This document shows, piece after piece, positions 5,081 through 15,193 of a stretch of DNA of 64,000 nt. The notes below the pieces were generated by a model. It did no database searches. It was not told the origin of the DNA and saw only the letters and a list, made by a program, of their open reading frames with translations. The position numbers were made by a program, and so were the translations under genes. Each line of letters begins with the position of its first letter. Position 1 is the stretch's first letter. This DNA is from Olsenella sp. An188 (lineage in GTDB: Bacteria; Actinomycetota; Coriobacteriia; Coriobacteriales; Atopobiaceae), in assembly GCF_002160255.1 (NCBI RefSeq), contig NZ_NFKF01000004.1, forward strand, positions 1 through 64,000. Direction: 5' to 3'.

Positions 5081-5452
5081 TTGCCTACAATCAACCAGCT
5101 CGTTCGCAACGGGCGCGTGAGCGTCAAGTCGAAGTCCAAGAACGCAGCCCTGCAGCACAACCCCCAGAAGCGCGGCGTGTGCACCCGCGTCTTCACCACC
5201 ACCCCCAAGAAGCCGAACTCCGCCCTTCGTAAGGTCGCCCGTGTGCGCCTCGTGAACGGCATCGAGGTCACCGCCTACATCCCCGGCGAGGGCCACAACC
5301 TCCAGGAGCACTCCATCGTCCTGATCCGTGGCGGCCGCGTCCGCGACCTCCCCGGTGTCCGCTACAAGATCATCCGTGGCGCCTACGACTGCGCCGCCGT
5401 GCAGAACCGCCAGAAGGCGCGCTCCCGCTACGGCACCAAGCGCCCCAAGTAG
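5081..5452 (+). CDS. rpsL: 30S ribosomal protein S12
   Basis: The 123-residue product begins [12 protein letters not shown] and carries the decoding-centre loops [13 protein letters not shown] and [11 protein letters not shown] that define S12. The lysine mutated in streptomycin resistance (TPKKPNS loop) appears wild type. The start is TTG, supported by GGAGAGAG seven bases upstream and by the conserved N-terminus. It leads the str operon behind a strong promoter. Confidence 0.98.
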
Positions 5453-5493
5453 TAAGCAGCCACTAATCGTCACCAGCTCTAAGGAGATACAAC

Positions 5494-5964
5494 ATGCCGC
5501 GTCGTGCAGCAGCCGTGCGTCGTGAGATTCAGCCTGACGCCGTCTACAACAACCGTCTCGTGACCCAGCTCATCAACAAGGTCCTTCTCGATGGCAAGAA
5601 GGCCACCGCCGAGCGCATCGTCTACGGTGCCTTTGACATCGTTGCCGAGAAGTCCGGCGAGGACGCCCTCTCCGTCTTCAAGAAGGCCATGGACAACATC
5701 CGCCCGACCCTCGAGGTCAAGCCCAAGCGCGTCGGCGGCGCCACCTACCAGGTGCCGATGGAGGTCAACTCCCGCCGCGCCACGACCCTGGCCATCCGCT
5801 GGCTCGTGAACTTCTCGCGCGCCCGCAAGGAGAAGACCATGGCCGAGCGCCTTGCCAACGAGATCCTCGACGCCTCCAACGGCGTGGGCGCCTCCATCAA
5901 GCGCCGCGAGGACCTCTTCAAGATGGCCGAGGCCAACCGCGCCTTCTCTCACTACCGCTTCTAG
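5494..5964 (+). CDS. rpsG: 30S ribosomal protein S7
   Basis: The product is 156 residues, the normal S7 length, with the family signature around [21 protein letters not shown]7 nucleates assembly of the 30S head and binds the 3' major domain of 16S rRNA. An AAGGAG site precedes the ATG. It sits in the conserved order rpsL-rpsG-fusA. Confidence 0.98.
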
Positions 5965-5989
5965 TCGCTGACCCGAGGAGAGGTAACTC

Positions 5990-8086
5990 ATGGCAAAGGC
6001 CAAGTACAACCTTAAGGACATGCGCAACATCGGCATCATGGCCCACATCGATGCCGGCAAGACCACCACGACCGAGCGCATCCTCTACTACACGGGCAAG
6101 ACCCACAAGATCGGCGAGGTCCACGACGGCGCCGCCACCATGGACTGGATGGTGCAGGAGCAGGAGCGCGGCGTGACCATCACCTCCGCGGCCACCACGT
6201 GCTTCTGGAAGGACCACGTCATCCAGATTATCGACACCCCGGGTCACGTTGACTTCACCTCCGAGGTCGAGCGCTGCCTGCGCGTCCTCGACGGTGCGGT
6301 CGCGGTGTTTGACGCCGTCGCCGGCGTCCAGCCGCAGTCCGAGACCGTCTGGCGTCAGGCCACGACCTACGGCGTCCCCCGCATCGCGTTCATCAACAAG
6401 TACGACCGCGTCGGCGCCGACTTCTTCCACGCCATCGAGACCATGAAGGACCGCCTGCACGCCAACGCCGTGGCGGCCCAGATCCCGATGGGCTCCGAGT
6501 CCAACTTCTGGGGTCTCGTCGACCTGGTCACCATGACCGCGTGGGACTTCAAGGAGGACGCCAAGGGCATGATCTACCCCGAGCCCATGGACGCCATCCC
6601 CGACGAGTTCGCCGACCTCGCCGCCGAGAAGCGCGAGGAGCTTCTCGACGCCGCCTCCAACTTCTCCGACGAGATCATGGAGGCCGTGCTCGAGGAGGCC
6701 GAGATCCCCGTCGACGACCTCAAGGCGGCCCTGCGCAAGGGCGTCATCGCCGGCGAGCTCAACCTCGTCTTCGTGGGCTCTGCCTACAAGAACAAGGGCA
6801 TCCAGGAGCTTCTCGACGCCGTCGTCGACTACCTCCCGAGCCCGCTCGACGTTGCCGAGATCGACGGCACCAACCTCAAGGGCGAGGATGAGGTCCGTCA
6901 CGCCGACCCCAAGGAGCCGTTCTCCGCACTCGCCTTCAAGATCATGACCGACCCGTACGTGGGCAAGCTCACCTACATCCGCGTGTACTCCGGCTCTGCC
7001 GAGGCGGGCTCCTACGTCTACAACTCGGTCAAGGACTCCCGCGAGCGTCTCGGCCGCATCCTCGAGATGAACGCCAACGACCGCGTGGACCGCGACGGCT
7101 GCTCCGCCGGTGACATCGTCGCCTGCGTCGGCCTCAAGAACACCACCACGGGCGAGACCCTCTGCGACGAGAAGCACCCGATCATCCTCGAGTCCATCCA
7201 GTTCGCCAACCCGGTCATCGACGTTGCCGTCGAGCCCAAGACCAAGGCCGAGCAGGAGAAGATGAGCGTCGGCCTGGCCAAGCTCGCCGAGGAGGACCCG
7301 ACCTTCCAGGTCCACACCGACCACGAGACCGGCCAGACCATCATCGCCGGCATGGGCGAGCTGCACCTCGAGATCATCGTCGACCGTTTGCGCCGCGAGT
7401 TCAAGGTCGACTGCAACGTGGGCAAGCCGCAGGTCGCCTACCGTGAGACCGCCGGCAAGGCCGTCATGCACGCCGAGGGCAAGTTCGTCCGCCAGTCCGG
7501 TGGTCGCGGCCAGTACGGTCACGCCATCATCGACATGGAGCCCAACGAGGAGGGCAAGGGCTACGAGTTCGAGAACGCCATCGTCGGTGGCGTCATCCCG
7601 AAGGAGTACATCCCCTCCATCGACAAGGGCATCCAGGAGGCGCTCGAGAGCGGCGTCATCGCCGGCTACCCGGTCGTCGACATCAAGGTCAAGCTCGTCG
7701 ACGGCTCCTACCACGAGGTCGACTCCTCCGAGGCCGCCTTCAAGATCGCCGGCTCCATGGCCATCAAGGAGGCCCTGCGCAAGTCCGACCCGATCCTGCT
7801 CGAGCCTGTCGAGGAGGTCGAGGTCGAGACGCCCGAGCAGTACATGGGCGACGTCATGGGCAACCTCTCCGGCCGCCGCGGCAAGATCGAGGGCATGGAG
7901 GACCGTCGCGACACCAAGGTGATTCGCGCCAAGGTGCCGCTGGGCGAGATGTTCGGCTACGCCACCGACCTCCGCTCCCAGACCCAGGGCCGCGCGAGCT
8001 ACACCATGCAGTTCGACTCCTACGAGCCCGTCCCGAAGAACATTCGCGACGAGATCGTCGCCAAGAACGGCGGAAACGCTTCCTAA
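5990..8086 (+). CDS. fusA: Translation elongation factor G
   Basis: The 698-residue GTPase is of full EF-G length. G motifs are intact: [15 protein letters not shown] (G1), DTPGHVDF (G3) and FINKYDR (G4). Domains II to V follow; the C-terminal part includes the domain IV segment near [11 protein letters not shown]. It drives ribosomal translocation and recycling. An AGGAG site lies nine bases before the ATG. The classical next gene, tuf, is absent here and rpsJ follows directly. Confidence 0.98.
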
Positions 8087-8125
8087 GTCAACGATCACGA
8101 GCCCTAGCTCATTTGGAGGTACACA

Positions 8126-8434
8126 GTGTCAAGCCAGAAGATCAGGATTCGCCTCAAGGGCTACGACCACGAGGTCGTTGACCAGTCCGCGAAGCTCATC
8201 GTGGACACCGCTCAGAAGACCGGTGCCCGCGTGTCCGGCCCCATCCCCCTGCCCACCGAGCGCAACCTCTACACGGTCATCCGCTCGCCGCACAAGGACA
8301 AGGACTCCCGCGAGCAGTTCGAGATGCGCACCCACAAGCGTCTCATCGACATCCTCGACCCGTCCCCGTCCACGGTCGACTCGCTCATGCGTCTTGACCT
8401 CCCGGCCGGCGTTGACATCGAGATCAAGCTCTAG
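8126..8434 (+). CDS. rpsJ: 30S ribosomal protein S10
   Basis: The 102-residue product has the S10 signature [20 protein letters not shown]. The start is GTG with TTGGAGGT upstream. rpsJ normally opens the S10 operon immediately before rplC. Here it is the last gene of the str unit and is separated from rplC by 7.8 kb of unrelated genes. A long composite hairpin follows 23 bases after its stop. Confidence 0.97.
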
Positions 8435-8457
8435 GCCGTAGGCCATCTCGCATCTAG

Positions 8458-8525
8458 GGGAGCCCCCGACCTTCCTTCGAGAAGTGCGCGCTGCGAAACT
8501 TCTCTCCGGAAGGTCGGGGGCTCCC
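8458..8525 (+). other. Composite hairpin RNA element, copy 1 (downstream of rpsJ)
   Basis: An outer perfect stem of 18 bp pairs 8458-8475 with 8508-8525. A 3x3 internal loop (TTC/TCC) leads to an inner stem GAGAAGT/ACTTCTC (8479-8485 with 8498-8504), capped by CGC-NNN-GCG. A second copy at 21904-21967 has the same inner part but a different, still fully paired, outer stem. The element probably ends or processes the str transcript. It lacks a clear U-tract, so a simple terminator is not certain. Confidence 0.7.
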
Positions 8526-8565
8526 TGCGTTATGGACCACGAGGCCGCCGGGTTTGGGGTGGTGG

Positions 8566-8599
8566 GTCAATTGTTACGAATACCGTGCCAGATATGACA
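8566..8599 (+). promoter_or_regulatory. Candidate LytTR operator upstream of the regulator gene
   Basis: Two half-sites, GTCAATTGTTACG (8566) and GCCAGATATGACA (8587), start exactly 21 bases apart. This matches the two sites upstream of the surface-protein genes, consensus GYCAANTNTKACR. The rest of 8526-8727 holds one 12-mer copy (8605-8616) and a -10-like TAAAAT (8684-8689) with no convincing -35. Autoregulation is an inference. Confidence 0.45.
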
Positions 8600-8727
8600 A
8601 ACCTGGCGAGAAGAACGTGGGCTGAGCTGCGCCTTTGCGCGGCGTACGACGGCACGGGACGGCCAAACATGCCGGGGGGACGGTAAAATGGCTGCGTGAT
8701 ATGCAAGTTCGCTGGGGGGAGGTATCC

Positions 8728-9435
8728 ATGAGCGTTGTCATCGCAGTCGTTGACGACGTTGCCAGCGAGGCTCGCCAGCTTGCGGACATGGTGCGCCGCT
8801 CGCCTAGCGTCGAGTCCCCCGATGTCGTCGAGCTCCTCTCCTCCGAGCAGCTGTACGACTACGCCGCCACCGAGCGCCCGCTCGACGTGCTCTTCGTCGA
8901 CGTGTGCCTCGGACAGGACAGCGGCATCGAGCTCGTGGGCCGCCTCCAGGCGCGGGGGCGCGTCGCCCAGGTTGTCTACGTGAGCGGATTCGACGAGGCA
9001 CACACCCGCGTCTACCAGACTCCTCACGCGAGCTTCGTACGAAAGCCGCTTCGCCAGGAGGACGTCGACCTGGCTCTCGAGCAGGCTCTCGCGCGACGCG
9101 AGGCCGCTTCGGCCGCCCCGCTCATGCTGCGGCACGACCACGTCGTCGACGTCGTGCGGCCCCAGGACGTCCTCTACGTGGAGAGCGACCGCCGCCACGT
9201 CATCATCCACACGCGAACGGAGACGCATCGGGTCTACGGCAAGCTCTCCGAGCTTCTCGCCAGCCTTCCGGCCAGCTTCGTGCGCTGCCACCAGAGCTAC
9301 GCCATCAACCTGGACTTCGTTGACCGGTTGAGCGTCGAGTTTGTCACCCTCACGTCGGGGGAGTGCATCCCGGTGAGCCGCCGCTGGCGCGCCTCCGTCC
9401 GAGAGGCGCTCTTCGCGCGAGTTCGGGAGGGGTAG
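8728..9435 (+). CDS. LytTR-family response regulator (AgrA/ComE type)
   Basis: This 235-residue protein has an N-terminal receiver domain (about 1-120) with the acidic pair in IAVVDDVASEA and the phospho-acceptor Asp58 in LFVDVCLG. A LytTR DNA-binding domain fills residues about 135-235, with the typical ending SFVRCHQSYAINLDFV. LytTR domains bind pairs of short direct repeats two helical turns apart. Such pairs occur before this gene and before both surface-protein genes. The chosen ATG has GGGGGGAGG five bases upstream; the frame extends further 5' but with no better start. The stop nearly abuts the kinase-like gene. Confidence 0.92.
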   Translation: MSVVIAVVDDVASEARQLADMVRRSPSVESPDVVELLSSEQLYDYAATERPLDVLFVDVCLGQDSGIELVGRLQARGRVAQVVYVSGFDEAHTRVYQTPHASFVRKPLRQEDVDLALEQALARREAASAAPLMLRHDHVVDVVRPQDVLYVESDRRHVIIHTRTETHRVYGKLSELLASLPASFVRCHQSYAINLDFVDRLSVEFVTLTSGECIPVSRRWRASVREALFARVREG

Positions 9436-9437
9436 CC

Positions 9438-10355
9438 GTGCCCGCCCTGACGGCCTTTGCGCAGGTGTACGCCGCGTTTCTGCCCCAGCTGCTCATCGCC
9501 TACGCCTTTCTTGACCGGGCCCTGACGCCCCGTTGGGGCGCTGCGCTGCGCGTGACGCAGGTGGTGGTGGCCGCGCTGCTGGTGCTGCCGGTCGGCGACA
9601 CCAGCACGGTGGGGACGGTGCTCTTCGTTGGAGTGGCGATGCCGCTCGTGTTCTACAAGGACGACGTACGCTTTCGGCTGCTGGTGGCCGCGCTGCTCAC
9701 GGTGGTGACGAGCGTGTCGGAGTTTTCGGGCATCGCCGTCTGGATGGTCGCCACGGGGTGGGCGGAGTCCAACTCAGTCGTGGAGTCGCTGGCGCACTAC
9801 CCCGCGCACGTGGCGTCGTCGCTTTTCTGCGCCGCCGTCAGCGCGCTCACGCTGTGGGTGTTTCTCAGGCAGCTTGCCGTGGTGCGGGCCCGCCTCCACG
9901 GCCGCGAGCTCACCCTCGTGGGGTTTCTCGTCTTGCAGGCCGCCTCGATCAACCTCTTTGGGAAGGCGATCATGCTGGGCTCGCCTGACGACGCCCCCAT
10001 CTTCTGGGGAGCCGCCGTCCTCGGGCTGCTCTGCCTTGCGGCGGACGTCGAGGTGCTCCGTGCGGTTGGGCGCCTGCGCCTGAGGGAGCTCGAGGCCCGT
10101 CGCGTCGCTCGGATGTCTTGGGCCGTGGAGGAGCTCTCCGCCGGCGCCAGGCGCGAGATGGGCGCGCTCGAGGAGGTCGCCATGCTGCGTCACGACGCGC
10201 GCAACCACCTCCAGGTCCTGACGTCGCTCATCGAGCGCGGTCAGCGCGGAGAGGCCGCGTCCTATGCCCGCGCCCTCTCCGCCACCCTGTCATCTCGCGG
10301 CGAGAAGAACGCGGCCTCCGGCGGCGCGCCTGGCGACGTGGGGAGCGAGCCATGA
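9438..10355 (+). CDS. Membrane sensor with phospho-acceptor H-box but no ATPase domain (split histidine kinase, part 1)
   Basis: The 305-residue product has about six N-terminal membrane segments (to about residue 210) and then a cytoplasmic helix. That helix carries MLRHDARNHLQVLTSLIERG, the H-box of the AgrC/ComD kinase group, with His252. The protein ends about 50 residues later, before any HATPase N, G or F box. The GTG start follows the regulator by two bases. The stop overlaps the next start as ATGA, so both are translated together. The missing catalytic domain is present in the next gene, whose own H-box lacks the histidine. A two-subunit kinase acting in trans is inferred. Confidence 0.85.
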   Translation: MPALTAFAQVYAAFLPQLLIAYAFLDRALTPRWGAALRVTQVVVAALLVLPVGDTSTVGTVLFVGVAMPLVFYKDDVRFRLLVAALLTVVTSVSEFSGIAVWMVATGWAESNSVVESLAHYPAHVASSLFCAAVSALTLWVFLRQLAVVRARLHGRELTLVGFLVLQAASINLFGKAIMLGSPDDAPIFWGAAVLGLLCLAADVEVLRAVGRLRLRELEARRVARMSWAVEELSAGARREMGALEEVAMLRHDARNHLQVLTSLIERGQRGEAASYARALSATLSSRGEKNAASGGAPGDVGSEP

Positions 10356-11299
10356 CGCGGATACTTGCCGTCTGGGTCACGGGGCTCGCCGCGGGCGCCC
10401 TCGTGCTGATTACGCTGGCGCTGCTGCGGACGCTGGCCCCGGTCTCGGGGCGCAGGCGCGCGGCGTGCCTGCTGTGCCCCACAAGCCAGATTCTCGTGAC
10501 GTGGTTCGTGCACGTGGCTGTCTACGAGGGTCGCATCGACGAACTGGCCTCGCTCGCCGTCGCCGCCTGCACGGCTGGGTGCACCGTGCTGTGCGCCGCG
10601 CTGCTGCGGGCCCTCGTGGCGGCGGAGGGTGCCGAGGCGGTGGCCGAGGAGGCGCACGTCATGGAGGACGTCCTGGCGGCCCAGCGTGACCAGGCGCGCT
10701 CGCTGGCGCGGGCGCGCGACTCTGCCTCCGCGCTCCGCGAGCGCGCGGTTCGGACGCTGGACGGGGTGGCCGAGGCGCTCGAAGGCGGGAGTGACGAGCG
10801 GGCGCTCGAACTGCTGGGCGTAGGCGAGCGCTCCCTGCGCGCCCCGGAGCGCACCGCGTGCGCGCAGCCCGCGGTGGCAGCGCTGCTGGCCGCAAAGGCG
10901 GAGCGTTGCGCGGAGCTGGGGATGCGCTGGGACTGTCGCGTCAACCTTCCGGCGCGCCCGGACGTCTCGAGCGTGGCGCTCTGCATGGTCTTCTCTAACC
11001 TGCTGGACAACGCGGTGGCGGGCGCGCAGGCGTCTGGCGTGCCCGAGCCCTTCGTCCGCGTTCGAGCCCACGTGGCCCACGGGCTTCTCGCCGTGCGGGT
11101 CGAGAACCCCTGCGCGCCGGGATCGACGTCCGCGGCGCCGCGCCCGGGCGCGGGCAGTCTTCCCGAGCACGGCTGGGGCCAGCGCATCGTGGCCTCCGTC
11201 GCGGCGTCTCACGACGGAGACTTCCGCTTTGGCGAGAAGGACGGCGTCTGGCGCGCCGACGCGATCCTGCAGCTGGGAGAGGGGCAAGACGAGGCGTGA
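10352..11299 (+). CDS. Membrane GHKL ATPase protein without acceptor histidine (split histidine kinase, part 2)
   Basis: The 315-residue protein begins with about three hydrophobic segments (to about residue 95). A coiled DHp-like helix follows that aligns with AgrC-type kinases but has no RHDxxNH motif. The C-terminus is a GHKL ATPase with an N-box (VFSNLLDNAVAGA, about 213-225) and a glycine motif (HGWGQRIVASVAA). It should bind ATP and could phosphorylate His252 of its upstream partner, which lacks an ATPase. The ATG overlaps the partner stop by four bases. The two LytTR-target surface genes lie downstream. Confidence 0.85.
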   Translation: MTRILAVWVTGLAAGALVLITLALLRTLAPVSGRRRAACLLCPTSQILVTWFVHVAVYEGRIDELASLAVAACTAGCTVLCAALLRALVAAEGAEAVAEEAHVMEDVLAAQRDQARSLARARDSASALRERAVRTLDGVAEALEGGSDERALELLGVGERSLRAPERTACAQPAVAALLAAKAERCAELGMRWDCRVNLPARPDVSSVALCMVFSNLLDNAVAGAQASGVPEPFVRVRAHVAHGLLAVRVENPCAPGSTSAAPRPGAGSLPEHGWGQRIVASVAASHDGDFRFGEKDGVWRADAILQLGEGQDEA

Positions 11300-11324
11300 G
11301 GCATCACGCTCGCCCGTCTCGCCC

Positions 11325-11358
11325 GTCAAGTTTGACATGTGAGCCGTCAAGTGTGACA
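11325..11358 (+). promoter_or_regulatory. LytTR-type operator of surface protein gene 1
   Basis: Direct repeats GTCAAGTTTGACA (11325-11337) and GTCAAGTGTGACA (11346-11358) start 21 bases apart, two helical turns. The second repeat starts 19 bases before a -35-like TTGAAC. The same geometry recurs before the second surface gene. Confidence 0.7.
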
Positions 11359-11364
11359 GCGCTC

Positions 11365-11392
11365 TTGAACCGGCATGCCCCGCGGGTCTAAA
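11365..11392 (+). promoter_or_regulatory. Promoter of surface protein gene 1
   Basis: TTGAAC (11365-11370) and TCTAAA (11387-11392) are separated by 16 bases. They sit directly downstream of the operator repeats. The weak, short-spaced promoter would suit an activator bound next to the -35. Confidence 0.5.
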
Positions 11393-11427
11393 AACAGCCT
11401 GTATGCTGCCTGAAAGAGGGGGTACCC

Positions 11428-13170
11428 ATGAAGCAACTGACGATGAGGAGGGCCCTTGCCGCACTGGCCCTCGTCGTTGCTGTGCTCGGCCTGGCAATCG
11501 TCCCGACCCTTGCTCGCGCCGAGGAGGGAGAGGCGGCTGCGACAGGTGATGTCGCGCTGGCCTCAGCGGAAGGGGCAGGTGACGATGCCCCGGACCTGAG
11601 CGGGACCTATCGCGTGACCTTTGACTACGGCGATGCGCGTATCGAGATCAATGATGGCCAGCAGACCTCGGGCTTCTGGTTTATATACACGGACGCGGAA
11701 GACCTGACATCAAAGGCCGACACGCTCAACGGCATCATTCAAGATAACGTTGCCGGGACGTTTTACGAAGGTTACACGGCACCCATGCTGTCTGGCGGAA
11801 CGGGGACCTTCTTGGGCTGGGCAACATCTCCGAACGTCTCGTTTGACAAGGTGCTGGAGCCGAGCGACTTTGCGTATCTCGAGTCCGAGGGCTACTACAA
11901 CCTGACGGTGACGGCGCGCTGGGGTGTTGAGTCGTCCGGCGGCGAGGAAACGCTGACGAGCTTCAAGATCGGGAACGGCGACATCTCTCTGGACGGGGTG
12001 GATGCATACCAGGTTCGCGTCCCCACGACGAGGCTGGTCTGGGAGGCGAATGCTGGGGCGGACTTCGAGGTTATCTCAGTTGCCGTTGCGGATTCCGAGG
12101 TTGCATCTGCGCAAAGCTATACGGATCAGATTACCGGGGAGACGGTGTGGAGCGTCGTTCCGGGCGTGGTCGGCGGGACGACGACGCTGACCGCAGTTGC
12201 TGTGGATGGGAGCAACCCCAACCTCAAGTTTGAGGACACAGTTACCGTCACCTGCACGCCCGGCGAGGGCTGGGTCCCCGCGCAGGACTTCACCATCGGG
12301 GAGGACGGCGTTCTCACGGTGCCGCTGTCCTGGGCGGACCTTGGCGGCTATAGCCTCTTTGACTGGGACTTCATGGAGGCGGTCCACTACGACCTGAGCG
12401 TCACCGTTGACGACCCAAGTGTCGCGCGAGTCGAGGGCTACGGGTACTCAATCACGCCCCTCAAGACTGGGACCACCACCATCACGGTGACGATTACCGA
12501 CAAGTTCTACGGCGGGACCAAGTCCGCAAAGGCGACGCTTGCCGTGACGGACGGCCCGGCGATGACTGTCATCTCCAACGAGCAGGGGGCGACGCTCTCG
12601 CACGAGGCGAAGCTGGTCGACGATGGCTTTGACGGAACCTACAACGATGACAGCACGTGGCGCGAGCTCGACCTCGTGACCGAGTGGCTGGGCGGCGAGG
12701 CTGCCTCGGCCGCGGGAGACGCCATCAACGCCGCGGTCTCCGGGGTCAGCTCAATGTACGTCTACGACATCCATCTCGAGGAGTATGGTCAGGTCTTCGA
12801 GATTCCCGAGGACGACTCGGTGACAGTGACGCTTCCGCTGCCTGAGGGCATGGAGCCCGACGGCGTGCGCGTCTTCCACGTGGCCGACGACGGCACGGTC
12901 ACGGACATGGGCGCCACGGTCGACGCCGAGGCCCGCACGGTGACGTTCACGACCACGCACTTCTCGACCTTCGTGATCGCGCGGGTCGGGACCGCGACCA
13001 CGACGCAGCCCGCGGGAGAGCAGACCAAGCCCTCCGAGGTTGAGAAGACCGACAAAGCCGAGGCCGTTCCGGCGACGGGCGACCCGGGCAGCGCGGCCGC
13101 CCTGCTCGCGGCAGGCTCCGGCGCGGCGGCGCTCCTCGGCTCCCGCGCGCTCCGCAGGCGTCGCGGCTAG
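11428..13170 (+). CDS. Sortase-anchored surface protein with Ig-like (Big2) and InlB-like modules (1)
   Basis: The 580-residue protein has a Sec signal peptide (about 1-34, ending near LARAEEG). It then has an InlB/flg-new-like stretch (FLGWATSP ... YNLTVTARW, about 90-170), bacterial Ig-like modules (about 175-370) and a C-terminal module ending THFSTFVIARVG. The cell-wall sorting signal is VPATGD, a hydrophobic Ala/Leu helix and RRRRG. Sortase would link it to peptidoglycan. Its last two segments are almost identical in DNA to the next gene. A LytTR-type operator lies upstream. The ligand is unknown; an adhesin role is only a family-level guess. Confidence 0.85.
   Translation: MKQLTMRRALAALALVVAVLGLAIVPTLARAEEGEAAATGDVALASAEGAGDDAPDLSGTYRVTFDYGDARIEINDGQQTSGFWFIYTDAEDLTSKADTLNGIIQDNVAGTFYEGYTAPMLSGGTGTFLGWATSPNVSFDKVLEPSDFAYLESEGYYNLTVTARWGVESSGGEETLTSFKIGNGDISLDGVDAYQVRVPTTRLVWEANAGADFEVISVAVADSEVASAQSYTDQITGETVWSVVPGVVGGTTTLTAVAVDGSNPNLKFEDTVTVTCTPGEGWVPAQDFTIGEDGVLTVPLSWADLGGYSLFDWDFMEAVHYDLSVTVDDPSVARVEGYGYSITPLKTGTTTITVTITDKFYGGTKSAKATLAVTDGPAMTVISNEQGATLSHEAKLVDDGFDGTYNDDSTWRELDLVTEWLGGEAASAAGDAINAAVSGVSSMYVYDIHLEEYGQVFEIPEDDSVTVTLPLPEGMEPDGVRVFHVADDGTVTDMGATVDAEARTVTFTTTHFSTFVIARVGTATTTQPAGEQTKPSEVEKTDKAEAVPATGDPGSAAALLAAGSGAAALLGSRALRRRRG
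12871..12975 (+). repeat. 105-bp near-identical segment shared with 14891-14995
   Basis: The DNA encoding the last ectodomain module is identical between the two surface genes except for one base (12892 versus 14912). Upstream coding regions are strongly diverged, so recent gene conversion or selection on this segment is likely. Confidence 0.85.
13087..13170 (+). repeat. 84-bp near-identical anchor segment shared with 15110-15193
   Basis: The coding sequence for the wall anchor and the stop codon is the same in both surface genes apart from one base. Confidence 0.85.
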
Positions 13171-13188
13171 CGACTACACGGCGTAATC

Positions 13189-13226
13189 GAGGCGCCCCGA
13201 GCCGCCAGGCCCGGGGCGCCTCTTCG
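13189..13226 (+). terminator. Terminator of surface protein gene 1
   Basis: A 10-bp GC-rich stem pairs 13189-13198 with 13213-13222 and is followed by TTCGT. It lies 18 bases after the stop codon. Confidence 0.6.
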
Positions 13227-13248
13227 TATGCGCTCGCCCTTCTCGCCC

Positions 13249-13282
13249 GCCAAGTTTTACAGGGGAGGGGCCAATATTGACG
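13249..13282 (+). promoter_or_regulatory. LytTR-type operator of surface protein gene 2
   Basis: Half-sites GCCAAGTTTTACA (13249-13261) and GCCAATATTGACG (13270-13282) start 21 bases apart. The second starts 19 bases before the -35-like TTGAGC, exactly as in front of surface gene 1. Confidence 0.65.
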
Positions 13283-13288
13283 TCCCCC

Positions 13289-13316
13289 TTGAGCGGGTGG
13301 TCGCCTACGGGATAAA
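13289..13316 (+). promoter_or_regulatory. Promoter of surface protein gene 2
   Basis: TTGAGC (13289-13294) and GATAAA (13311-13316) are separated by 16 bases, the same spacing as the promoter of surface gene 1. Both leaders also share CTGAAAGA followed by a G-run just before the start codon. Confidence 0.5.
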
Positions 13317-13354
13317 ACCATTCTGCACGCTATCTGAAAGATGGGGGTCATGTA

Positions 13355-15193
13355 ATGAGGTCGAAGACAGGAAGATGGGGGCTCCCCACGCTGCTCTGTG
13401 CGCTGCTGCTTGCCGTGTGCGTTGCGTGCGGCGTGGCCCCGGCTACCGCCCGCGCCGATGAGGCGAGCGGGTCGAATGGTCCGGACGTGACGCTCTACGT
13501 GGTGGAGAACTGCGCGGAATGCGGCGGCGCCCATGCGGGCGACTACCAGCTGCTGGGCGGTCGCGAGATCTGGAACAGCCGCATCGACTACGTCTCCGTT
13601 GACGAGGGCGCGGGCGTGGTCGCGGCGGAAAAGGTGCTTGAGGGGTACGACGAAGGGGGCGTCGCCTTCCATCGGGTCAAGGTCTCCTCCCTCAAGCCGG
13701 GAACGGCGACCGTCTCCGTGCACTACGTCGACCGCGAGGGAAACCCCAACTCCGACGTCAACTACATCACCGTTGAGGTCAAGTCCGTGAGCGACCCCGC
13801 CGATCTGCCGGAGACCTATTCCACGTCGAGCGTCAAGCGCTACGCGATCGACATGGCCGACCCCTTCGGCGGCCTCTCTGACGCCTGGATCACCTCGGAC
13901 AAGATCATGAGCCAGTCCGTTCTGGACACCATCGCCGAGAACCCTGAGCTTGACTACGAGCTTGGCGAGAGCGTCATGCTGGGCGACGGGCAGGACTACA
14001 CGTTCATGGGCTGGGCCCACGACGGCCACTCGATGGAACTGGGCTCTGTGCCTTCGGAAGACGCGTTCAGCAACGTCTCTGCGGCGTTCTCCGAGGGGGC
14101 GTTCACCCACTACTACGACTGCCCCATCAGGGCAACCTGGAACCCCAACCCGGAGACCGGCGTGTACGAGCCCTGGGCTCCCGGCTCGGGCAACGAGCTG
14201 CTGCCCTACGTCCGTACGGCGGACGACTCGATCCTCTCCTTCGTGGACATGCCCGAGCTCGGCGAGTGGTACCGACTCGATTTCAAGTGCTCTGACGGCG
14301 TTGCCTACAACGGCACGGTTGGCGGCGGCTCGAGCCGCACTATGACGATCGAGCGCACCTTCCTGGACGCCGACGACCCGCTCTTTGACGCGAACGCCTA
14401 CACGGAGGGCCCGGTCTGGGTCCGTGGGGACAACGGCGGCGACTGGACCTCCGTCATGTTCACCATCCCGGCCACCGGGGGCGTGAACTACCGCCTCGAG
14501 CCGGCGGACGCGGGTACCGTGGCCGTCAACAGCGTCGGCGACGGCATGCTTGGCCTGCGCGTGCAGCTCGACAAGCCCGCTACGCTCGTGGTTGAGCCGT
14601 CCGACACGGTGACCATCTCCAACGAGTCCGGTGCCACGCTCACCGTGCCGGCTACCTCGAGCGACCCCAACTTCTATCACTGGCTCACGCTCGAGACCGC
14701 CTGGCTTGATGGCGACGCCGCCCAGGAGCCGTTTGACGCGCTCGTCTCTGCGGTGGACGGCGTGACCAAGGCCTACGTGTATGACATCAGCCTGGTCGGG
14801 CCTGGCGGCGTGGCCGTCCAGCCGCTCGAGGGTGACGCGGTTGCCGTGACCCTGCCCATCCCTGAGGGCCTCTCCGCCGAGGGTCTCCACGTCTTCCACG
14901 TGGCCGACGACAGCACGGTCACGGACATGGGCGCCACGGTCGACGCCGAGGCCCGCACGGTGACGTTCACGACCACGCACTTCTCGACCTTCGTGCTCGC
15001 CAACGTGGGCGGCCAGCCCGACGGCGATGCTGTCCCCGAGACCAAGCCCGCGGGCGAGAAGAACGTGGCGGAGCCCTCCGACGAGGCGGTGCCTGCCACC
15101 GGTGACGCCGGCAGCGCGGCCGCCCTGCTCGCGGCAGGCTCCGGCGCGGCGGCACTCCTCGGCTCCCGCGCGCTCCGCAGGCGTCGCGGCTAG
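13355..15193 (+). CDS. Sortase-anchored surface protein with Ig-like and InlB-like modules (2)
   Basis: The 612-residue paralogue of the preceding gene has a Sec signal (about 1-37, ending near ATARADEA). An Ig-like region follows (about 45-145, VSSLKPGTATVSVHYVD), then an InlB-like module (YTFMGWAHDG ... RATWNP) and the shared C-terminal module. The wall anchor is VPATGD, a hydrophobic segment and RRRRG. The ATG at 13355 has a GGGGG ribosome site eight bases upstream. It ends at a strong terminator. Co-regulation with gene 1 by the upstream LytTR system is inferred from matching operator geometry. Confidence 0.85.
   Translation: MRSKTGRWGLPTLLCALLLAVCVACGVAPATARADEASGSNGPDVTLYVVENCAECGGAHAGDYQLLGGREIWNSRIDYVSVDEGAGVVAAEKVLEGYDEGGVAFHRVKVSSLKPGTATVSVHYVDREGNPNSDVNYITVEVKSVSDPADLPETYSTSSVKRYAIDMADPFGGLSDAWITSDKIMSQSVLDTIAENPELDYELGESVMLGDGQDYTFMGWAHDGHSMELGSVPSEDAFSNVSAAFSEGAFTHYYDCPIRATWNPNPETGVYEPWAPGSGNELLPYVRTADDSILSFVDMPELGEWYRLDFKCSDGVAYNGTVGGGSSRTMTIERTFLDADDPLFDANAYTEGPVWVRGDNGGDWTSVMFTIPATGGVNYRLEPADAGTVAVNSVGDGMLGLRVQLDKPATLVVEPSDTVTISNESGATLTVPATSSDPNFYHWLTLETAWLDGDAAQEPFDALVSAVDGVTKAYVYDISLVGPGGVAVQPLEGDAVAVTLPIPEGLSAEGLHVFHVADDSTVTDMGATVDAEARTVTFTTTHFSTFVLANVGGQPDGDAVPETKPAGEKNVAEPSDEAVPATGDAGSAAALLAAGSGAAALLGSRALRRRRG

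Follow-up and report, generated by a model that had tools for sequence, protein, structure and literature searches.

How does a membrane receptor signal when its phosphoacceptor histidine and its ATPase are encoded by two neighboring genes? The question is raised by a locus of Olsenella sp. An188 (assembly GCF_002160255.1), contained in a window that comprises positions 1 to 64,000 of contig NZ_NFKF01000004.1 and is the whole stretch of DNA analyzed here. The usual picture of a histidine kinase is a homodimer in which each chain bears both acceptor and ATPase; domain counts would class protein A of this locus as an incomplete kinase and protein B as an orphan ATPase, while the two may be halves of one enzyme. 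The reading that we favor, with a probability of roughly 0.8, is that A and B are the two parts of a single membrane sensor histidine kinase, with B phosphorylating A in trans and the output passing through a LytTR regulator.

The genes in question lie on the forward strand. The regulator gene (8728–9435), directly before A, encodes a receiver and a LytTR domain (Pfam Response_reg, 35.6 bits against a cut-off of 30.2; LytTR, 66.4 bits against 22.6), i.e., a two-component response regulator beside the kinase genes, and weakly matches AgrA. The A gene runs from a GTG at 9438 to a TGA at 10355 (305 residues), the B gene from an ATG at 10352 to a TGA at 11299 (315 residues), and their junction is an ATGA overlap. 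This layout, a pair overlapping by ATGA behind a LytTR regulator, had been proposed in a first-pass annotation of the sequence, the coordinates of which are correct.

Protein A (9438–10355, forward strand) is a membrane domain followed by a phosphoacceptor (DHp) hairpin without an ATPase, as judged from Pfam, AlphaFold and the 58 loci that have both genes. Its sole Pfam match up to E 1 is a sub-threshold SPOB_a hit (E 0.0032) over residues 248–276, around His252; no ATPase domain is found up to the same limit. The AlphaFold model (mean pLDDT 90.2) consists of membrane helices, a helix of residues 186–266 that carries His252 and a helix of residues 270–294, after which the chain ends. Foldseek returned no PDB match for this model at E ≤ 0.001, which does not demonstrate a new fold. 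The predicted acceptor His252 (codon 10191–10193, forward strand) belongs to an RHDxRNH box, is present in 77/77 aligned A proteins and, together with R251, D253, R255, N256 and H257, is invariant in nine aligned A-B pairs, drawn from eight genomes, one of which has two pairs. When 27 aligned A proteins, window A included, were searched with Pfam at E ≤ 0.01, SPOB_a was found in 18 and an ATPase family in none. One A protein, at locus L173, keeps the histidine within an altered box, LHHVLANK, and is counted against the A-B kinase reading; the L173 pair (5191–6923), with its changed H-box and weak ATPase score, is possibly decaying.

Protein B (10352–11299, forward strand) joins a membrane part of three helices to a pseudo-DHp hairpin and a GHKL ATPase, an assignment drawn from Pfam, AlphaFold and structure matches. 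HATPase_c_5 is recognized above the Pfam cut-off (E 2.5e-7), no acceptor domain is found up to E 1, and HATPase_c_5 is present in 21/21 aligned B proteins, including that of the window, with SPOB_a absent from their family matches (E ≤ 0.01). In the AlphaFold model (mean pLDDT 86.5), helices span residues 2–27, 33–58, 64–144 and 148–162, and the ATPase domain (residues 173–307; 10868–11272, forward strand) follows. The best solved-structure matches are to AgrC: 6e52 aligns over 220 residues (Z 15.9, rmsd 9.8), and the ATPase domain by itself aligns with AgrC 4bxi over 133 residues (Z 15.8, rmsd 2.2); a sequence-based search with B likewise ranks AgrC 6e52 first (E 4e-5). B therefore has an ATPase of the AgrC fold. 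The N-box (N216–A221; 10997–11014, forward strand) and the G-box (H273–G276, HGWG; 11168–11179, forward strand) are well kept: N216, D219, N220, A221 and the HGWG box are invariant in 9/9 aligned pairs, and among 63 B proteins N216 and N220 are each found in 62, D219 in 60, G274 in 60 (three gaps) and G276 in 61 (two gaps). The replacement of D219 by Asn in three of the 63 is counted against the A-B kinase reading. Because B has only three membrane helices, any role for it in signal sensing is tentative.

The acceptor histidine of A is replaced in nearly all B proteins. In a profile-to-profile alignment (probability 98, E 1.7e-13, 129 columns), the last membrane part, the coil and the hairpin of A align with the membrane part, the coil and the hairpin of B, with Glu130 of B (codon 10739–10741, forward strand) falling under His252 of A. 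An invariant alanine occupies the equivalent place in the second helix of both sets of nine, as A273 in A and A151 in B. Counted from aligned columns, not with a motif expression, and with those B starts that had long open frames trimmed to the overlap before alignment, the acceptor histidine is found in 77/77 A proteins versus 3/63 B proteins. At this site B has Glu in 14 proteins, Ala in 11, Arg in 11, Asp in six, Thr in five, Gln in four, His and Leu in three each, Ser and Met in two each, and Gly and Val in one each; none of the B proteins in the nine aligned pairs has His there. The three histidine-bearing B proteins are counted against the A-B kinase reading; in two of them the motif is otherwise missing (RHRVAE, RHVYAD), and the third is that of L172. 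The simplest reading of these alignments is that one receptor kinase was duplicated and that the two copies then lost opposite halves.

For the window, the first-pass annotation had claimed that A retains the H-box His252 and ends before any ATPase, and that B has a GHKL ATPase and no acceptor histidine. Both statements hold up, A showing just the weak SPOB_a hit and a model that terminates in the hairpin, and B a HATPase_c_5 domain above the cut-off with Glu130 at the aligned site. The HMM check that it had proposed gave a SPOB_a-type match on A and HATPase_c_5 on B, with no crossover; a search for a hidden ATPase in A, a hidden H-box in B or a frameshift between the genes found none; and the pair does co-occur in other genomes, as separate same-strand genes at 58/69 loci.

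Acceptor and ATPase are inherited together. Single-sequence searches found A in eight of 60 relatives (own genome included), with a B match adjoining in 8/8. A scan with the A alignment gave 22 loci; a B-only scan of genome contigs confirmed no relative among 592 pattern matches. Profile searches across the class, with up to five candidates scored per genome, found A in 80/396 genomes (E ≤ 1e-5) and B in 137/396 (E ≤ 1e-20), complete kinases being among the matches of both. In a scan of the phylum, an A match at E ≤ 1e-8 turned up in 13/396 genomes, of which two (G438 and G532) lie outside the class; the G438 hit (L153) proved to be a 452-residue complete kinase. Seventy stretches around the stronger hits were then taken; two of these hold complete kinases, and the other 68 plus the window make up 69 loci, so that the locus counts describe the stronger hits and are not rates. 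At 58 of the 69 (48 genomes) A and B are separate genes, always on the same strand; at six (six genomes) they are fused; at five one of them stands alone, and four of these five are cut by a contig end (one A, three B). Both halves are therefore present at 64/65 uncut loci (58 separate, six fused). The exception, L169 (5140–6210), has a B without a neighboring A and with unrelated genes upstream, and is counted against the A-B kinase reading; the N-box of this B-type protein reads NLVNNA. The order is regulator-A-B at 31 loci, regulator-B-A at seven and A-B-regulator at two, with other arrays at the remainder, and a script found a regulator within the stretch at 52/58 split loci (53 with L125). 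Split pairs recur in related gut bacteria, in records named Olsenella, Thermophilibacter, Collinsella, Slackia, Enterorhabdus and Rubneribacter; by look-up, Olsenella belongs to the Atopobiaceae, Slackia to the Eggerthellaceae and Collinsella to the Coriobacteriaceae. Two of the named hits, L074 and L075, the latter from an Oscillospiraceae record, are complete kinases.

These data bear on the most mundane explanation, that the split is a frameshift, an assembly error or a pseudogene of an ordinary kinase. A change of frame between two overlapping genes can give just this appearance, yet B has its own start, its own membrane part and a second hairpin, the split form recurs in 48 genomes, and 45/47 adjoining pairs are in different frames, while in the other two a stop plus a short gap lies between the genes. 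The closest aligned pair is 63% identical to the window in A and 63% in B; substitution ratios against it (NG86) are about 0.25 for A (dN 0.279, dS 1.111) and about 0.30 for B (dN 0.261, dS 0.879), which indicates that both genes are under purifying selection. An artifact is thus scarcely credible.

A less trivial alternative is that some other cellular kinase phosphorylates A and that B is a mere scaffold or inhibitor. The genome has six HATPase_c_5 matches, and the five besides B are complete kinases of 432–448 residues, each chain of which, on inspection by eye, carries an H-D-x-K/R box together with an N-box, so candidates are at hand; moreover, there is precedent for pseudokinases acting on a partner kinase (PMC9491836). 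A pure scaffold would have no need of the ATPase motifs that B conserves, and A and B are co-located at 64/65 uncut loci; we consider this alternative very improbable.

In the A-B kinase that we favor, A would be the receptor and phosphoacceptor, its membrane domain leading through a long helix into the DHp hairpin with His252, and B the ATPase subunit, with its three membrane helices, pseudo-DHp hairpin and GHKL domain. Coil and hairpins of the two would join in a mixed bundle of four helices; the ATPase of B would phosphorylate His252 of A, in trans only, because B lacks the histidine and A lacks the ATPase, AgrC dimers offering a parallel; and the phosphate would pass from A to the LytTR regulator.

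Natural A-B fusions of 532–680 residues, found at six loci, place an A half before a B half: a membrane part and the RHD hairpin, then a linker, and after it a second membrane part, a hairpin without the His and the ATPase. In L137 the open frame examined does not include the first A helices. The six stem from two families. A tree that includes contig-cut B rows implies four changes of the split/fused label, and one without them implies three, two of which are forced by well-supported branches. At least three independent fusion origins had been considered on this basis and were withdrawn: the AU test does not reject a tree that keeps the six as one group (p 0.41), and for that reason the fusions may count as one event. 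Divergence is correlated as well. At 40 loci, those where A, B and regulator each occur exactly once (29 of the 69 fall outside this set), pairwise distances correlate at 0.913 for A and B, 0.819 for A and regulator, and 0.840 for B and regulator, and for each of the three 0/2000 permutations reach as high a value; all three are raised because the genes share an operon history. By virtue of complementary loss, co-presence at 64/65 loci, natural fusions and correlated divergence, the comparative evidence supports a heteromer in which B would phosphorylate A, the interpretation that the first-pass annotation had put forward.

The main rival to a heterodimer accepts the phosphotransfer and disputes the bundle: A and B would form separate homodimers, A acting as a membrane-bound phosphotransfer protein that B meets transiently, with no mixed DHp bundle. 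Split kinases of the CheA3/CheA4 type do work through a complex of separate proteins (PMC3591291), and in the model B has a helical hairpin of its own that could self-dimerize. The matching membrane-adjacent coil and hairpin on A and B, and the presence of one A and one B in every fusion chain, speak for joint assembly; both are compatible with the transient encounter too, which we regard as unlikely, though distinctly less so than either of the alternatives discussed above.

The number of A genes is not fixed. More than one is present at 15/58 split loci, one of which (L111) also has two B: at 6593–14448 a single regulator gene is accompanied by four A genes and two B genes. Locus L156 (4305–7848) has three A and one B. 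Over 21 pairs of same-locus A paralogues, with H-box columns excluded, the sensor part is 19–42% identical and the hairpin 41–89%. Compared with other-locus pairs matched for sensor identity, hairpin identity is above the median in 18/19 same-locus pairs (two of the 21 were dropped), with a mean excess of 0.24. Pairs inside one array are not independent; counted by locus, 13/13 are above the median, from 13 of the 15 multi-A loci, L125 (few shared sensor columns) and L113 (few matched controls) having been set aside. Relatedness explains part of this excess, because control pairs that join different loci within a genome exceed the median too (19/22, mean excess 0.075). Within single genomes, hairpin identity is 77–89% within a locus versus 29–52% between loci in G356, 44–50% versus 32–38% in G336, and 68–89% versus 32–34% in G210, where sensor identity is also higher within loci.

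Such matched hairpins would fit several receptors held to a common partner, either the regulator or B, though the same picture would result from gene conversion or from domain swapping. We tentatively propose, at somewhat less than even odds, a modular kinase present in three families of Coriobacteriia, in which one ATPase subunit, B, drives a set of swappable receptor-acceptors, A. If this is true, A genes duplicate and their sensors diverge fast while coil and hairpin are kept matched to the common B and regulator, and one operon hears several signals and feeds one regulator, its output being set by the balance of A to B.

As for the output, the operators of LytTR systems are paired direct repeats spaced by roughly two turns of the helix, and the window has three candidate sites that look like them, each a direct repeat with a period of 21 on the forward strand. 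One with two half-sites lies before the regulator gene (8567–8599), with similar sites in G021, G003 and G007; the other two, of like layout, lie before two genes for secreted surface proteins downstream of B (11326–11358 and 13250–13282). With up to one mismatch allowed, a pattern built from these sites matches the 2,136,169-base genome three times, all exact, at 8567, 11326 and 13250; since the window sites helped to build the pattern, the informative part is its absence elsewhere in the genome. A reversed-pattern control gives no match in the same genome. Across 31 genomes of the genus there are five exact matches, all at split-kinase loci (the three of the window, and G021 and G003); of the matches with one mismatch, one is at the G007 locus and six more are scattered. 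Three other carriers (G014, G013 and G028) have no match at their own locus, which is counted against the A-B kinase reading.

The surface proteins are encoded at 11428–13170 and 13355–15193 (forward strand). Both have a signal-like start and a VPATGD-hydrophobic-RRRR end, which we take to be the layout of a sortase signal; they are paralogues, with 53–59% identity over the C-terminal 220–250 residues, and neither has a Pfam or NCBIfam match above cut-off. At six of the 68 other loci, homologues directly follow the kinase genes. These two genes are the likeliest targets of the system: the regulator would bind the period-21 repeats and control its own operon and the two genes downstream. The surface proteins could also take part in sensing.

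One of the closest known systems is Agr, with the quorum-sensing receptor kinase AgrC. In B, hairpin and ATPase have their best counterparts in the kinase module of AgrC (6e52) and its ATPase domain (4bxi), and the window regulator, like AgrA, is of the LytTR type. AgrC has its H-box and ATPase on one chain; in A/B, according to Pfam and the AlphaFold models, they are on different chains. An AgrB/AgrD-type signal was considered: AgrB (PF04647), the peptide-processing partner, was found in none of eight genomes with an A-B pair, the family being found in just 1/14 of a control set.

Split kinases as such are already known; the membrane-receptor variant is apparently new within the open-access literature, where no description was found of a membrane-receptor split pair, or of any split pair in Coriobacteriia (subscription journals lie mostly outside that search). 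The available portions of five papers contain no membrane receptor pair of this kind (PMC9491836, PMC5956149, PMC3841183, PMC4053972, PMC5992135). A/B would be a conserved, naturally divided, membrane-embedded form of kinase in which one acceptor hairpin is active and the other decayed, and thereby a natural system for the study of trans-only phosphorylation, of the pairing code of DHp bundles and of the sharing of an ATPase by several receptors.

Among the known cases, the pseudokinase ChrS of Corynebacterium glutamicum resembles A in that its ATPase is destroyed and it still signals with another kinase; unlike A, it arose by laboratory evolution, can dispense with its own acceptor histidine and has a complete kinase as partner, and no heterodimer was observed for its truncated form (PMC9491836). 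Hik36 and Hik43 of Synechocystis, termed a split kinase, interact in a two-hybrid assay and, divided over two proteins as A and B are, have an HPt part on one and the ATPase part on the other; unlike A and B, they are CheA-like and encoded far apart, and Hik43 also has CheW-like and receiver domains (PMC7656254). Neither an HPt (P1) nor a CheW-like (P5) domain is matched in A or B by Pfam up to E 1. A further study (PMC3591291) counts 1556 of 42417 HisKA proteins in SMART without HATPase, records that EnvZ can be split in vitro, and reports models that predict switch-like responses of split bifunctional kinases, a prediction that the A/B family could test outside chemotaxis. For CheA3 and CheA4, the split chemotaxis kinase of Rhodobacter sphaeroides, it reports label only when both proteins are mixed; like A and B, they have the phosphorylatable histidine on one protein and the ATPase on another (PMC3591291). 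They differ from A/B in having CheA domains and a chemotaxis cluster; the A/B pair, for its part, sits in the membrane, combines an AgrC-type ATPase with one true and one decayed DHp hairpin, and is accompanied by a LytTR regulator.
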